A model generated the notes under the pieces. That model ran no database searches. It saw nothing but the letters and a program-made list of their open reading frames with translations, and was not told where the DNA came from. Below are positions 16,476 through 63,816 of a stretch of DNA of 64,000 bases, piece after piece. The position numbers and the translations under genes are program-made. Numbering within the stretch: position 1 is the stretch's first letter; each line of letters opens with the position of its first letter. The stretch is from Desulfobacteraceae bacterium Eth-SRB1 (GTDB taxonomy: Bacteria; Desulfobacterota; Desulfobacteria; Desulfobacterales; ETH-SRB1). Where the stretch lies: assembly GCA_004193555.1 (NCBI GenBank), contig RPGP01000029.1:204976-268975 (forward strand), read 5' to 3'.

Positions 16476-16683
16476 GGCTGAAGGCTAAAGGCTGTTAGGA
16501 AGGGATTTAGGGATTGAAAAAAATGAACATCGAACGTCCAACGTCGAATTTTGAATAAGGAATTTTGCCAATTTATAAACTGGAGGAGCGGAGCGACATC
16601 ATTATTCGACGTTCGATGTTGGACGTTCATCTTTTAACATAGGGGACGGGAATTAAAGGATTAAATGATTAGAGGATTAAGAG
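16476..16683. repeat. GAACGTC-heptamer inverted repeat plus half GGCTGTTA repeat
   Basis: Arms are at 16523-16549 and 16603-16630. Each is built of three seven-base units (AACATCG, AACGTCC, AACGTCG), in a different order in the two arms. The loop contains GGAGGAGCGGAGCGACATCATT, seen also beside other copies. A partial GGCTGTTA run lies at 16481-16500. It separates two subunit genes of one enzyme. Confidence 0.85.
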
Positions 16684-58204: not shown

Positions 58205-58778
58205 ATGAGTACAATAATTAAAACCGACAGTTTGTCTGCCACTCTTTTCGGAAAGACCCGACGGGCGGTTTTGGCCTTACTGTACAGCCACGTTGATGAA
58301 TCCTTCTATATCCGCCAGATTGCCCGTACAGCCGGAGTTGGCTTGGGTGCTGTGCGAGAAGCTCATCATTACAGAGTTATTCAATCTCTTGCTCATACTA
58401 TGAAGGCTGATGCCGGCTTGATTGTTTTATTCGATCAGTTTCGAAAGAAAAGGAATATCAGCGGTTATGATCATGCCGGTATGATATCCCGTCCCCCTTT
58501 TCGCGTGGTAATTATCAGATTCAGGATGTTGTTTTCAAAAAATGGCTTCAAGGAACATTATCGTTATAACAACAGCAATATCCATCCTGCCCTTCTTCCA
58601 TCCTTTCCCGGGGTTGATGGATATGGTGATACATTCCGGTATGGCTGCAAAGTCGGAGGCTGTACCGTACACTTTGTCGATTATGGCGAAGACTCCGGTC
58701 CTATAATTAGGTCAGAAGGCTTTTCATATTAATGAGGATGACACATTGGATTCGATCAAGGGAAAAGGAAATGTTTGA
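58205..58778 (+). pseudogene. Chimeric remnant: HTH of a nucleotidyltransferase, HEPN fragment and PurN end
   Basis: One open frame joins three unrelated pieces. Positions 58205-58360 encode MSTIIKTDSLSATLFGKTRR and a winged-helix part of the type that precedes MNT-type nucleotidyltransferase domains, cut at GLGAVRE. Positions 58361-58486 encode HHYRVIQSLAHTM and LFDQFRKKRNISGYD, the end of a HEPN protein. Positions 58577-58711 encode IHPALLPSFPG and GCTVHFVDYGEDSGPII, typical for phosphoribosylglycinamide formyltransferase. There a one-base insertion near 58709 shifts the frame; the other frame continues GQKAFHINEDDTLDSIKGKG up to a stop at 58778. The upstream in-frame codons from 58112 overlap nadK. 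I regard it as debris from successive deletions, not a gene product. Confidence 0.75.
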
Positions 58779-58791
58779 AAGGTTATAAAAA

Positions 58792-61700
58792 ATGTCGGCT
58801 CCCGAAGAAATATATAAACTCGTTGAGCGTTTTGACCGCAACCTTGATGCATATCGGTCAGGCAAATACAACGAGGCCCAGGTTCGACAGGAATTTATCA
58901 ACCCCTTCTTTAATGCCCTTGGTTGGGATATTTACAACAAACAAGGCTATGCGGAGGCTTACAAGGATGTAATCCATGAGGATGCGATTAAAGTAGGCAG
59001 CGTCGTAAAAGCCCCTGATTACTGCTTTTGCATTGGCGGCACACGGAAATTCTTTCTCGAAGCAAAGAAACCGGCCGTCAATATCAAGAAAGATATCAGC
59101 CCGGCCTACCAACTTCGCCGTTACGCCTGGTCAGCCAAGCTGCCGCTCAGCATTCTTACAGACTTTGAGGAGCTTGCCGTTTATGACTGCCGGATCAAAC
59201 CGGTAAAAACCGACATGGCTTCCAGGGCACGGACTTACTATCTGACATATACTGATTATATCGACCAATGGGACGAAATCGCTTTGATTTTCTCTCGCGA
59301 AGCCGTGCTTAAAGGTTCGTTTGACAGATATGTCGAGTCAAGCAAAGCAAAGCGTGGAACTGCCGAGGTTGATATTGCCTTTCTCGAAGAAATTGATCGG
59401 TGGCGTGAAATACTGGCGCGCAACATTGCCCTGCGGAATTCCGGCCTTACAATACGCGAACTGAACTTTGCCGTGCAACATACCATAGACCGTATCGTTT
59501 TTCTGCGAATCTGCGAAGACCGCGGTGTCGAACTATACGGGCGGCTTATGTCTTTGAAAAACGGCACACAAGTCTATCAACGATTGTGCCAACTTTTCCG
59601 GCAGGCCGATGATCGTTATAACTCCGGCCTTTTCCACTTCAGAAAGGAAAAAGATCGCACCTCTTCCCCTGATGACCTTACACTTGATCTCACAATTGAC
59701 GACAAAACCCTCAAGGATATTTTCAAAAATCTCTATTACCCGGACAGCCCGTATGAATTTTCTGTCTTTCAAGCAGATATTCTGGGGCAGGTCTATGAAC
59801 GGTTCCTCGGGAAAGTAATCCGTCTTACCTCCGGCAACCGGGCCGTCGTTGAAGATAAGCCGGAGATCAAGAAGGCAGGAGGCGTCTATTACACTCCCAC
59901 CTATATAGTTGATTACATCGTAAAACAGACAGTCGGCGAGCTTGTTGACGGCAAAAAGCCAGGCCCCCGTGGAGCGGTGAGCAAACTGAAAATTCTGGAC
60001 CCAGCCTGCGGTTCCGGTTCATTTTTAATCGGCGCTTATCAGTATCTACTTGACTGGCACAGGGATCAATATATAGCCGATGGCCCCGAGAAATGGGCCA
60101 AAGCGCGCAAGCCTCGCCTTTATCAAAGAGCCGGTGGTGACTGGCGACTTACTACCGATGAACGAAAGCGCATTCTTCTCAATAATATCTACGGTGTGGA
60201 TATCGACCCTCAGGCCGTGGAGGTAACCAAACTTTCACTTCTTCTTAAGGTGCTGGAAGACGAAAACTCCGAAACTATTAAAAAGCAGCTTGCCCTGTTC
60301 CACGAACGTGTCCTGCCTGACCTGGAAAACAATATCAAATGCGGCAATTCCCTTATCGGCCCCGATTTTTACGAGGGACAGCAGATGAGCTTTCTTGATG
60401 AAGAAGAGATGTACCGCATCAATGTTTTTGACTGGAAAACGGAATTTTCCGAAATCATGAGGGCAGGGGGATTTGATGCGGTGATCGGGAATCCGCCGTA
60501 TGTCAGAATTCAAGCGATGAAAGAATGGGCTCCGCTGGAAGTGGAATTTTATAAGAAGCGATATATAGCTGCCAGCAAAGGAAATTATGACATTTACGTT
60601 GTTTTTGTAGAAAAAGGTTTAAATCTGCTTAACGGTCGAGGACGGTTTGGCTTCATCCTGCCACACAAATTTTTTAATGCTCAATATGGAGAATCTTTAC
60701 GCAAGTTGCTTGCTGCTGGAAAACATTTAAAAGAAATAATACATTTTGGCGACCGACAGGTTTTTGCGAATGCCACTACTTATACTTGCCTCTTGTTTTT
60801 GAATAAGCAGGAGAGGAAAGATTTCAACTTTGTCAAAGTTAATGATTTACGCAGTTGGCGTCAAGACGAACCACAAAAAGAAGGGAATGTTTTAACTGAC
60901 AAGGTCACCGCTGATAACTGGAATTTTGTTGTGGGGCCGGGGGCAAAACTGTTTGAGCGTTTAATGGAGATGCCGATAAAGTTGGGTGATGTGGCTGTAA
61001 AAATATTCCAGGGTTTAATAACTGGTTCTGATTCTGTTTTTATAATGGAGAACATTTCAAAAACAGAATACAAATCGGCAGCCACAGGAAAGACATATAA
61101 TCTCGAATCGTCATTGTTGCATCCACTCTGCAAAGGCTCTGTAAACCTGAAGCGTTACCATATTACCGAGATTACCAAGTCAATTTTGTTTCCTTACAAA
61201 GTTGTTAATGACAAAGCAGGATTACTGTCTACACGAGATTTAGCAGATTTATTTCCCAATGTATGGTCATATTTGAAGGAAAATCGTCAAATACTTGAGG
61301 CACGAGAAAAAGGGAAATGGAAACACGACAAATGGTATGCCTTAGGGCGTTCTCAAAATCTTAGCGAAATGGAACAAGAAAAAATACTAACTCCGAGTAT
61401 TGCGAACAGGGTATCATTTACGTTCAATACGAGTGATTATTATTACTTTGTCGGTAGCGGCGGTGGTGGTGGTGGCTACGGCATTATTCTTAAGGATGAG
61501 TATTTGTCACTAACTTACTTTTATCTACTGGGCTTATTAAATTCTAACCTGTTTGATTGGTTAATAAAACAGATAAGTAGCCCGTTTAGTGGTGGATATT
61601 ATTCCTACAACCGACAATACATAGAACCGCTCCCTATCCGCACTATCGACTTCTCCGACCCCGCCGACAAGGCTCGCCACGACCGTATGGTCGAACTCGT

Positions 61701-61866
61701 CGAACAAATGCTCGATTTGCACAAACAACTGGCAGAAGCCAAAGTGCCTCAGGCAAAAACCGTCCTCCAGCGCCAGATTGAAACCACAGACAGACAAATT
61801 GACCGGCTGGTCTATGAATTATATGAATTGACGGAAGACGAAATCAAGATCGTCGAAGGCTCATAA
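58792..61866 (+). CDS. Single-chain restriction-modification enzyme (type IIG/Eco57I-like)
   Basis: A 1024-residue protein combining nuclease, methyltransferase and target recognition. The N-terminus has an HSDR-like segment (FINPFFNALGWD) and a PD-(D/E)XK-type centre with FFLEAKKP (about residues 87-94). The adenine methyltransferase has motif I ILDPACGSGSF (about 402-412) and motif IV VIGNPPYV (about 564-571). The C-terminal part (about 700-960) should be the recognition domain, with SPFSGGYYSYNRQYIEPLPI and a final coiled helix. All core motifs are intact. GAAAGG precedes the ATG. No separate specificity subunit or methyltransferase is adjacent. It lies in an accessory region with remnants and cassettes, consistent with horizontal gain. 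Confidence 0.9.
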   Translation: MSAPEEIYKLVERFDRNLDAYRSGKYNEAQVRQEFINPFFNALGWDIYNKQGYAEAYKDVIHEDAIKVGSVVKAPDYCFCIGGTRKFFLEAKKPAVNIKKDISPAYQLRRYAWSAKLPLSILTDFEELAVYDCRIKPVKTDMASRARTYYLTYTDYIDQWDEIALIFSREAVLKGSFDRYVESSKAKRGTAEVDIAFLEEIDRWREILARNIALRNSGLTIRELNFAVQHTIDRIVFLRICEDRGVELYGRLMSLKNGTQVYQRLCQLFRQADDRYNSGLFHFRKEKDRTSSPDDLTLDLTIDDKTLKDIFKNLYYPDSPYEFSVFQADILGQVYERFLGKVIRLTSGNRAVVEDKPEIKKAGGVYYTPTYIVDYIVKQTVGELVDGKKPGPRGAVSKLKILDPACGSGSFLIGAYQYLLDWHRDQYIADGPEKWAKARKPRLYQRAGGDWRLTTDERKRILLNNIYGVDIDPQAVEVTKLSLLLKVLEDENSETIKKQLALFHERVLPDLENNIKCGNSLIGPDFYEGQQMSFLDEEEMYRINVFDWKTEFSEIMRAGGFDAVIGNPPYVRIQAMKEWAPLEVEFYKKRYIAASKGNYDIYVVFVEKGLNLLNGRGRFGFILPHKFFNAQYGESLRKLLAAGKHLKEIIHFGDRQVFANATTYTCLLFLNKQERKDFNFVKVNDLRSWRQDEPQKEGNVLTDKVTADNWNFVVGPGAKLFERLMEMPIKLGDVAVKIFQGLITGSDSVFIMENISKTEYKSAATGKTYNLESSLLHPLCKGSVNLKRYHITEITKSILFPYKVVNDKAGLLSTRDLADLFPNVWSYLKENRQILEAREKGKWKHDKWYALGRSQNLSEMEQEKILTPSIANRVSFTFNTSDYYYFVGSGGGGGGYGIILKDEYLSLTYFYLLGLLNSNLFDWLIKQISSPFSGGYYSYNRQYIEPLPIRTIDFSDPADKARHDRMVELVEQMLDLHKQLAEAKVPQAKTVLQRQIETTDRQIDRLVYELYELTEDEIKIVEGS

Positions 61867-62072
61867 ATCACAGGGAATATAAGCCCTTTCCTTTCAAGCA
61901 ATTCCATATTTTTAGAGGCGTTTTCAGACGTTGACATATGGTATTTTTACCTGTTAAAAATAGTAATTGAAGATAATAGAGCAAGGCAAATCTGCTCGAA
62001 AACACCCTCAGTATCGTCATATCAAGGCAAATTGGCCTGTCAATCAATGGATACTTTGAAGCTGGATTCTAT
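61867..62072. other. Spacer after the restriction-modification gene
   Basis: No gene seen. I looked for an integron attI or attC site ahead of the first cassette-like gene and found none that I could support. Confidence 0.4.
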
Positions 62073-62429
62073 ATGGAATACTTATTGACTATTTTACTAG
62101 GTTTATTTAGCGGTGCAGCCGGGTCATTAATAGCGCCGTGGATTCATTGGGGTATTGAAAAGAAGCGTGATAAAATTAAAGCACGTCGCGATTTAATCTC
62201 AAATGCCAGGCAATTCATTGGATCAAAATCTTTTAGCGGTTTTTGTTTTTCCGAGGAAACCTATTTCATACAACTAAAACCATTTTTTGATGAAAAGGTC
62301 ATTGACTGGGTTGAAAAGTTTGATCACTATTCTGAAGTTGTCGATGACAACTCTACACTTCACGAAGACCTAAAGGTTGAGCTCTTTAAGCAGCTTCATC
62401 GAATTGAAAAAGAATGGGGTTTAATATAG
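62073..62429 (+). CDS. Hypothetical membrane-anchored protein, first cassette-like gene
   Basis: A 118-residue protein I do not recognise. It has one N-terminal helix (YLLTILLGLFSGAAGSLIAP, residues about 3-22), then a basic stretch (WGIEKKRDKIKARRDL) and a soluble C-terminal domain of about 80 residues without known motifs. The gene is short, carries no strong promoter or ribosome site of its own, and its stop codon lies only 7 bases before an attC-like structure in the same orientation. This is how integron gene cassettes are arranged. A role together with the next gene, also a single-helix protein, is possible. Confidence 0.6.
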   Translation: MEYLLTILLGLFSGAAGSLIAPWIHWGIEKKRDKIKARRDLISNARQFIGSKSFSGFCFSEETYFIQLKPFFDEKVIDWVEKFDHYSEVVDDNSTLHEDLKVELFKQLHRIEKEWGLI

Positions 62430-62436
62430 CAAGTAA

Positions 62437-62565
62437 GTATAACCACTGCGTGGACACGGGCCGGGAAAACGATGCCATTTTGGGCTTTTTTGCAGTTATC
62501 ATTCAACTTGACATTTGCGTCGGCCCAGTTGTTTTCCCGTCCGGTCACGCAGAACGAGGTTTTAC
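62437..62565 (+). repeat. attC-like recombination site (integron cassette type)
   Basis: A 129-base imperfect palindrome with the layout of attC. The outer boxes are GTATAAC (62437-62443) and GTTTTAC (62559-62565), complementary at six of seven positions. Inner stem: CTGCGTG (62446-62452) with CACGCAG (62546-62552 region), then ACACGG with CCGGT, then CGGGAAAAC (62462-62470) with GTTTTCCCG (62531-62539). The pairing leaves three single unpaired bases (62453, 62456, 62461), all on the left arm, as the extrahelical bases of attC sites do. The 60-base centre is the variable terminal structure. The first box deviates from RYYYAAC at one position. Confidence 0.6.
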
Positions 62566-62570
62566 AAAAA

Positions 62571-63209
62571 ATGGCAGAAAGTACTGGACTCAACATAATT
62601 AGTAGCCTTGTAACATTAGGTGCAGTGGCATTAGGATGGCTGCTTGGCGAAACCACTGGATGGTTTAAAAGTAAAAAGAGAATAACTGTTCTTAAAAAAG
62701 CACTTTTTGAAGAGATCCAAGATGCTTCGTCATGGCTAAGAAGAAATCAATTAACACTTGAGGAAATCATCCAACTATCTACTATAGAATACCTTTCCGA
62801 AGTTAGTCCAGTTTCTGTTCCTGTTCATATATATGACAAACACTTTCCCGAAATATCTGTTTATTTATCAAGATCAGAAAGAATTTCTTATAACTCCATA
62901 TATAATCTTATCAATATCTCCTATGATCAAATCAAAAAGATAAGAGCACTAAGATCGGCTTGCTTAAGTGATAAAACGAAAATAAAGGAATACTTAGAAA
63001 TACTAGATGCAGCCTACTATAACATTTCAATGGCTATATGGCAGATCAATCGTCATATAAATTATGGGTCCCAAATAAATGTAGACAACTTATCTGGGGA
63101 AGACGCGAAAGTTATTGATGATGAAATTAAAGAGAAACTTATTAAAATCACCAACGAAGCGAAAACATTAAGTGTTTCAGAAATAGAGAAAAATTATTAC
63201 AAAACCTAA
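62571..63209 (+). CDS. Hypothetical membrane-anchored protein, second cassette-like gene
   Basis: A 212-residue protein without a known family. I start at the ATG at 62571 (MAESTGLNIISSLVTLGAVA): a longer frame from 62472 would be translated from the attC-like palindrome. It has one helix near the N-terminus (residues about 8-27), then a charged, mostly helical soluble part (SKKRITVLKKALFEEIQDA and onward) resembling long-helix sensor or phage-defence accessory proteins only in a general way. The start lies 5 bases after the attC-like site, and the stop codon TAA is inside ACCTAAC, the first box of a second site. Both fit a gene cassette. Base composition is more AT-rich than in the restriction gene. 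Confidence 0.6.
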   Translation: MAESTGLNIISSLVTLGAVALGWLLGETTGWFKSKKRITVLKKALFEEIQDASSWLRRNQLTLEEIIQLSTIEYLSEVSPVSVPVHIYDKHFPEISVYLSRSERISYNSIYNLINISYDQIKKIRALRSACLSDKTKIKEYLEILDAAYYNISMAIWQINRHINYGSQINVDNLSGEDAKVIDDEIKEKLIKITNEAKTLSVSEIEKNYYKT

Positions 63210-63227
63210 CCTGTGCAGCGGGACGCC
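63204..63227 (+). repeat. Left half of a second attC-like site
   Basis: ACCTAAC (63204-63210) matches RYYYAAC exactly and is followed by CTGTGCAGCGGGACGCC, like the left stem of many attC sites. The facing right half is absent; REP/transposase DNA follows instead, so the site appears truncated. Confidence 0.45.
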
Positions 63228-63292
63228 ATGATTTTATGCGTTTCTCATTTTATTTTTGATCTTTTGCGGAGATCGCAAAGTTCTAGGACGAC

Positions 63293-63325
63293 AAAGGGGG
63301 ACGGGGTTGAATTTAGGCGTTTCTT
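63293..63325 (+). repeat. Left REP-type inverted repeat of the transposase remnant
   Basis: AAAGGGGGACGGGGTTGAAT and TTAGGCGTTTCTT. Its complement, with some changes and an 11-base insertion, is at 63773-63816 on the far side of the transposase frame. Confidence 0.7.
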
Positions 63326-63354
63326 TTTTCATTTGTTTGTGGTAATGAAGCCAC

Positions 63355-63774
63355 ATGCCACGTCAAGCCAGAATAGATGCGCCGGGTGCCTTGCATCATA
63401 TAATATGCAGGGGTATTGAGCGACGAAATATTTTTAAAGGCAATACAGATCGAAACCGGTTTCTGGAAAGACTCGATTTTGTGTCAGGAAAACACTTACC
63501 TTCTGGAACTGCAAAAGGATGGACGCTGCCAAAGATTACCGAAAGGGTTTCAGAAATCTTTGGCATTGAAAAAGACCAAGTGGTTGTCGCCGGAAAACAG
63601 CCCGATCGGGTACGTGCCCGTAGTGTTCTGGCCTACTGGGCGATTAGGGACCTGGCTCTGACGGCAACGGAGGTTGGCAAGTATCTCGGTCTGAGCAAAT
63701 CCGCTGTCAGTCGGGCGGCCGCCAGTAGAGGCCAAAAACTGATCGTCGATCAATTCTTGTCCCTGCAAGCATAG
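63355..63774 (+). pseudogene. REP-associated tyrosine transposase, internally deleted
   Basis: A 139-residue frame. The first 43 residues (MPRQARIDAPGALHHIICRG, ERRNIFKGNTDRNRFLERL) are the beginning of TnpA-REP/RAYT Y1 transposases. From about residue 48 it continues with the C-terminal DnaA-like/HTH region (LPKITERVSEIFGIEKDQVV, LTATEVGKYLGLSKSAVSRA). The middle, which would hold the HUH motif and the catalytic tyrosine, is missing; full-length members have about 300 residues. The deletion kept the frame. Without the catalytic part it cannot transpose by itself. REP-like inverted repeats flank it. Confidence 0.8.
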
Positions 63775-63816
63775 AAACGCGTAATTTCAACCCTCCCTTC
63801 CTTTCCGTCCCCCTTT
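63773..63816 (-). repeat. Right REP-type inverted repeat of the transposase remnant
   Basis: GAAACGCGTAATTTCAACCC, an added CTCCCTTCCTT, then TCCGTCCCCCTTTT. It is the reverse complement of 63293-63325 apart from that insert. Confidence 0.7.

Follow-up and report, generated by a model that had tools for sequence, protein, structure and literature searches.

Degraded integrons, intI pseudogenes and CALINs, i.e., attC-bearing cassettes without a nearby integrase gene, have already been described (PMC9024848, PMC2426708, PMC12444791), as have partial attI sites carried in cassettes (PMC12901181). The locus analysed here lies in a 64,000-nt stretch of DNA (the window) from a sulfate-reducing bacterium and resembles a CALIN in that its cassettes have no integrase gene beside them. 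Yet it has only one intact attC, which is below the IntegronFinder 2 default of at least two (PMC9024848), and it differs from a CALIN in retaining an attI together with a stub of intI. The complete sedentary chromosomal integron on contig C25 of genome G072, from the same family, has a homologous attI, the same G|TT crossover and the same general attC architecture as the window, whereas its intI is intact and that of the window is cut to about 15 codons. Integrons with intI pseudogenes (PMC2426708; in Xanthomonas, PMC12444791) share with the window a dead integrase and cassettes possibly moved in trans; in the window, however, intI is almost wholly deleted, and intI-less copies of its attI occur at several loci in relatives. 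In the Delta-attI-type gene cassettes of mobile integrons (PMC12901181) an attI is likewise found away from intI, and recombines there, but it is a partial attI replacing the attC of a cassette, whereas that of the window is an entry site upstream of an array. Little has been described of attI sites other than those of class 1 integrons, and IntegronFinder misses them (PMC9024848), so integrase-less arrays are normally called CALINs without a check for attI; the window case shows that homology can reveal an attI where intI has been lost. For integrase-less attI sites that recur at several loci and carry different cassettes there, we found no description in a limited search of the open-access literature.

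The first cassette gene (gene 1, 62073-62429, forward strand) is followed by a palindrome at 62437-62565, read in a preliminary description as an attC with paired outer and inner boxes and unpaired bases on one arm. This structure is present. The outer boxes R'' (GTATAAC, 62437-62443) and R' (GTTTTAC, 62559-62565) pair at 6 of 7 positions, and the inner arms are complementary (CTGCGT[G]GAC[A]CGG[GC]CGGGAAAAC vs. CTGCGT-GAC-CGG-A-CGGGAAAAC); the unpaired extra bases belong to the left arm. The spacing is also as had been claimed, the stop codon of gene 1 lying 7 bp before the palindrome and the ATG of gene 2 (62571) 5 bp after it; gene 1 is built like an integron cassette. Shuffled sequences fold less well than the bottom strand (z = -3.0), and the inner motif CCGGGAAAA..TTTT is common to this site and the other attC sites of the lineage. 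Relative to the consensus (R'' = RYYYAAC, R' = GTTRRRY) the AAC and GTT cores are kept, with one deviation in GTATAAC and two in GTTTTAC; a RTATAAC-type box is present too in a strong attC at C1:2419-2546.

A simple box-and-helix scanner recovered attC sites but picked up a dispersed GTCCAAC/ATCGAAC repeat family as well, and for this reason we switched to covariance models. The heptamers of that family, direct and inverted (ATCGAACATCGAACGTCCAAC...), are found at 16529-16624 of the window and at many other loci, and mimic attC core boxes in pattern scans. Model R1 was built from 36 attC sites near integron integrases of other organisms. Applied to the window's genome it gave 43 sites up to E = 10, mostly clustered and several of them adjoining intI genes; its top match in the window was 62437-62565 on the gene strand, a weak match of 17 bits (E = 0.003 in 2.5 kb and 3.7 genome-wide). 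Model R2, trained on 43 R1 matches from this genome with the window site left out, scored the same site on the gene strand at 47 bits, with E = 4e-9 in 216 kb and 6.2e-8 in the whole genome, which bears out the earlier assignment. Covariation in the attC model set was 0.432 vs. 0.137 after shuffling and also far above that of slid versions, in a test that leans in favour since the alignment was fitted to the structure. An Rfam scan of the window returned no matches. As a sequence element, 62437-62565 is beyond reasonable doubt an integron attC.

To the left of cassette 1, the segment 61980-62050 (forward strand) is identical at 54 of 72 positions (75%) to the 72 bp that separate the complete intI (L136:593-1588, reverse strand) from the first cassette (G|TTATGT..ACATAAC attC) in the intact G072 integron, and because of this shared position we identify it as an attI with the crossover after G62050. 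Next to it, on the reverse strand at 61893-61937, is a stub of about 15 codons (MSTSENASKNMELLE) that aligns continuously with locus L225 of a relative; there the frame stays open and encodes a longer intI N-terminus, with 67% identity to full IntI (E = 1.6e-29). Of the parts of a complete integron, the window thus has an attI, by homology to the G072 site, and lacks a functional adjacent intI, of which only 61937-61893 is left. The sequence 61889-62050 recurs in relatives, and copies with a preserved right end stop at ..AATCAATGG| or very close to it; the intI beside the attI in L225 and L230 is in each case an N-terminal fragment only.

With few exceptions, other copies of this attI whose right end is preserved continue with G|TT. 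At five other loci the first R' box, at this junction, is the exact complement of an R'' downstream in the same locus (GTTGGAT/ATCCAAC, GTTCTGC/GCAGAAC, GTTCGGA/TCCGAAC, GTTGGGC/GCCCAAC and GTTATGT/ACATAAC), as compared with 3 matches in 30 mismatched combinations of locus and heptamer. The complement of the window's R'' (GTATAAC) would be GTTATAC, and the boundary reads G|ATAC instead. On our reading of the sequence, cassette 1 starts with ATAC at 62051-62054, which is probably the rest of GTTATAC after loss of TT. With TT apparently missing, cassette 1 would probably be hard to excise; since the R' box (GTTTTAC) and the spacer (3 extra bases) of its attC are also off consensus, it may no longer be mobile.

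An Eco57I-type restriction-modification (R-M) gene adjoins the array (58792-61866, forward strand; Pfam PF07669, E = 1.6e-50) and allows comparison with a second genome of the same genus, G348. Its DNA is 94% identical over 58769-60983 (blastn vs. locus L222 of G348), and the match resumes at 88% over 61630-62050, ending at the crossover base. The two genomes thus have in common the R-M gene, the junction between it and the stub, the intI stub and the attI. The stretch between the two matching blocks, 60984-61629, has been replaced between the genomes, a probable swap of the target-recognition domain. Beyond the attI, the G348 array reads G|TTGGAT and then a DUF2971-like gene with ATCCAAC behind it; next come a membrane gene, a 29-bit attC and another DUF2971 gene. 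None of this has DNA similarity to genes 1 and 2 in a blastn comparison. As far as they can be compared, the outer flanks of the R-M/attI unit also differ; the unit lies elsewhere in G348 or is rearranged there, and may have been transferred in one piece.

We consider the locus to be a degraded integron of the CALIN type that has kept its attI, and whose cassettes were changed by site-specific recombination after the loss of intI, likely in trans, and we put the probability of this reading at about 0.87. The attC, the attI, the stub, the boundary and the differing cassettes on which it builds are established as sequence features. The deletion of intI down to about 15 codons would predate the split of the window's genome and G348, because the R-M/stub/attI junction is common to both. 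The shared stub junction, the differing cassettes and the stop of homology at the crossover base indicate that the cassette content was altered by site-specific recombination once intI was gone from the locus. Cassette 1 would have entered by IntI-type recombination, in which the folded bottom strand of its attC crossed over with the double-stranded attI at G62050. The simplest and most likely agent of exchange would be an integrase supplied in trans, and the cassettes may be expressed from a promoter next to the attI. Weighing against this reading are the off-consensus attC and missing TT of cassette 1, the lack of a cognate intI type in the genome and the different outer flanks of the unit in G348. 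Damaged integron platforms may thus still exchange genes, and two genomes with the same stub and attI and different cassettes make the in-trans use of dead integrons directly testable.

The main rival to exchange in trans is that all cassettes pre-date the loss of intI and that the window's genome and G348 lost different ones from a longer shared array. CALINs are in general regarded as degraded integrons (PMC9024848), deletions from the attI to one attC or another would bring different cassettes into first place behind an unchanged boundary, and a copy of one repeat closes both arrays. Against such ordinary decay, the genomes have no cassette in common, and precise removal up to the attI crossover requires an integrase, so that it would still imply activity after the loss of intI unless the deletions came before it. 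We regard differential loss as a serious contender, with a somewhat less than even chance of being correct.

Insertion of the cassette at a random, attG-like chromosomal site instead of an attI would be expected to leave just such a lone intact attC with no integrase, and the non-consensus R' box fits it as well; we consider it very improbable, given that the 72 bp on the left of the cassette are homologous to a genuine attI adjoining an intact intI and are accompanied by an intI stub. Unrelated palindromic repeats are abundant in the genome, and a terminator, REP or other structured repeat at 62437-62565 could be suspected on that ground. The palindrome is nonetheless single-copy in the genome, matches the attC model at E = 6e-8, is oriented with the gene strand and has an attI next door, which leaves that explanation a negligible chance.

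The preferred reading, a degraded integron re-used in trans, calls for an integrase elsewhere. The preliminary description had no integrase in view, which holds for the locus itself beyond the stub but not for the genome. The 3.34-Mb assembly (52 contigs) contains five near-full-length intI genes, two with internal stops, as well as fragments, and R2 found about 50 further attC sites with E < 0.01; a search for both had been suggested. The intI on the window's own contig (C29:72491-73429) is 194 kb away and has an in-frame stop, and intact copies are on other contigs. One integrase of the genome shares 97% identity with its counterpart in Candidatus Desulfaltia bathyphila, which puts the organism close to that genus (Desulfobacterales). 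Within the order, 34 of 58 genomes yielded an intI match above the cut-off. Upstream of the genome's own intI copies we found no attI related to that of the window. The cognate intI type of the window attI is not in the genome either, the best match being about 51-55% identical to the intact relative; non-cognate attI/IntI pairs recombine poorly (PMC8946536). Like C29:72491-73429, the integron integrase copy at C28:756-1691 has an in-frame stop, in the same genome as the intact ones.

On the downstream side, gene 2 (62571-63209, forward strand) would be the next cassette, its attC truncated at or near the R'' box by a dispersed repeat. The earlier claim of a second site at 63204 was correct as to the box, ACCTAAC (63204-63210), which overlaps the gene 2 stop codon. 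The supposed left stem, however, belongs to a copy of a 17-copy intergenic repeat (63212-63279, forward strand), and 63204 was therefore rejected as an attC half. A covariance-model search there gave no convincing match, and ACCTAAC mismatches the R' of cassette 2 itself (GTTTTAC). At most, a true R'' remnant (ACAAAAC or ACCTAAC, forward strand), cut off by the repeat, possibly survives at 63199-63211. What had been described as a small cluster of attC sites lacking an integrase is thus supported as to cassettes, with one intact attC and not two. The G348 array ends in a similar manner, with an R''-like box with a stop codon inside (TTCTAACAATTCGAATTCCGGGAC) and then the same repeat.

Copies of this repeat (GTACAGCGGGACRCCCATGATTTTATGCG...) include C1:406054, C40:805903 and C29:268187 (window 63212), and 8 of the 17 are within 3 kb of an attC vs. 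1.1 expected. Folded attC DNA may be its target, or it may simply build up where integrons are. One copy sits within an attC. The window copy is followed by a multi-copy element (63291-63793, forward strand) holding a REP-transposase-like fragment ORF (63355-63774), with an 87% identical copy at C29:406196-406728.

The products of genes 1 (118 AA, an orphan) and 2 (212 AA) both read as a starting hydrophobic helix, a membrane anchor in gene 2, followed by helical domains of cytosolic type, and the proteins may have a membrane role. Pfam, NCBIfam and PADLOC gave nothing usable for either, and gene 1 had no family match above the cut-off; gene 2 matched weakly the uncharacterised phage family phrog_31367 (E = 3e-5, residues 7-170). 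ZorD/UvrD matches near E = 0.05 were set aside as chance. There were no credible homologues of either gene in 297 genomes of the phylum, none of gene 2 in a pattern-seeded scan of about 85,000 species and none credible of gene 1 in viral contigs; nor was a homologue of the cassette proteins found where plasmid, genome and viral collections were searched. An apparent relative of gene 1 in genome G169 was rejected as not credible, as it sits inside an apparent histidine-kinase gene. AlphaFold models made without an alignment were all-helical, with pLDDT of 76 (gene 1) and 45 (gene 2), too weak for a fold search. Given the R-M gene and toxin-antitoxin cassettes nearby, a defence or phage-related role would be plausible.

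A second copy of the stub and attI (C29:270235-270365), with the attI partly deleted, is located 3.3 kb downstream, outside the window. We tentatively suggest that in a Desulfaltia-related family the unit of intI stub and attI may have spread to several loci as an integrase-less landing platform that integrases from other loci fill and refill in trans, a scheme that could well prove wrong. The second integrase-less attI lies in C29:270235-271300 (L027:6235-7300), 1.3-2.3 kb beyond the window end. Its cassette encodes a RelE/HTH toxin-antitoxin pair between the boxes G|TTCTGC..GCAGAAC, and the attC of this cassette is cut after 54 bases and followed by a REP-type transposase gene.
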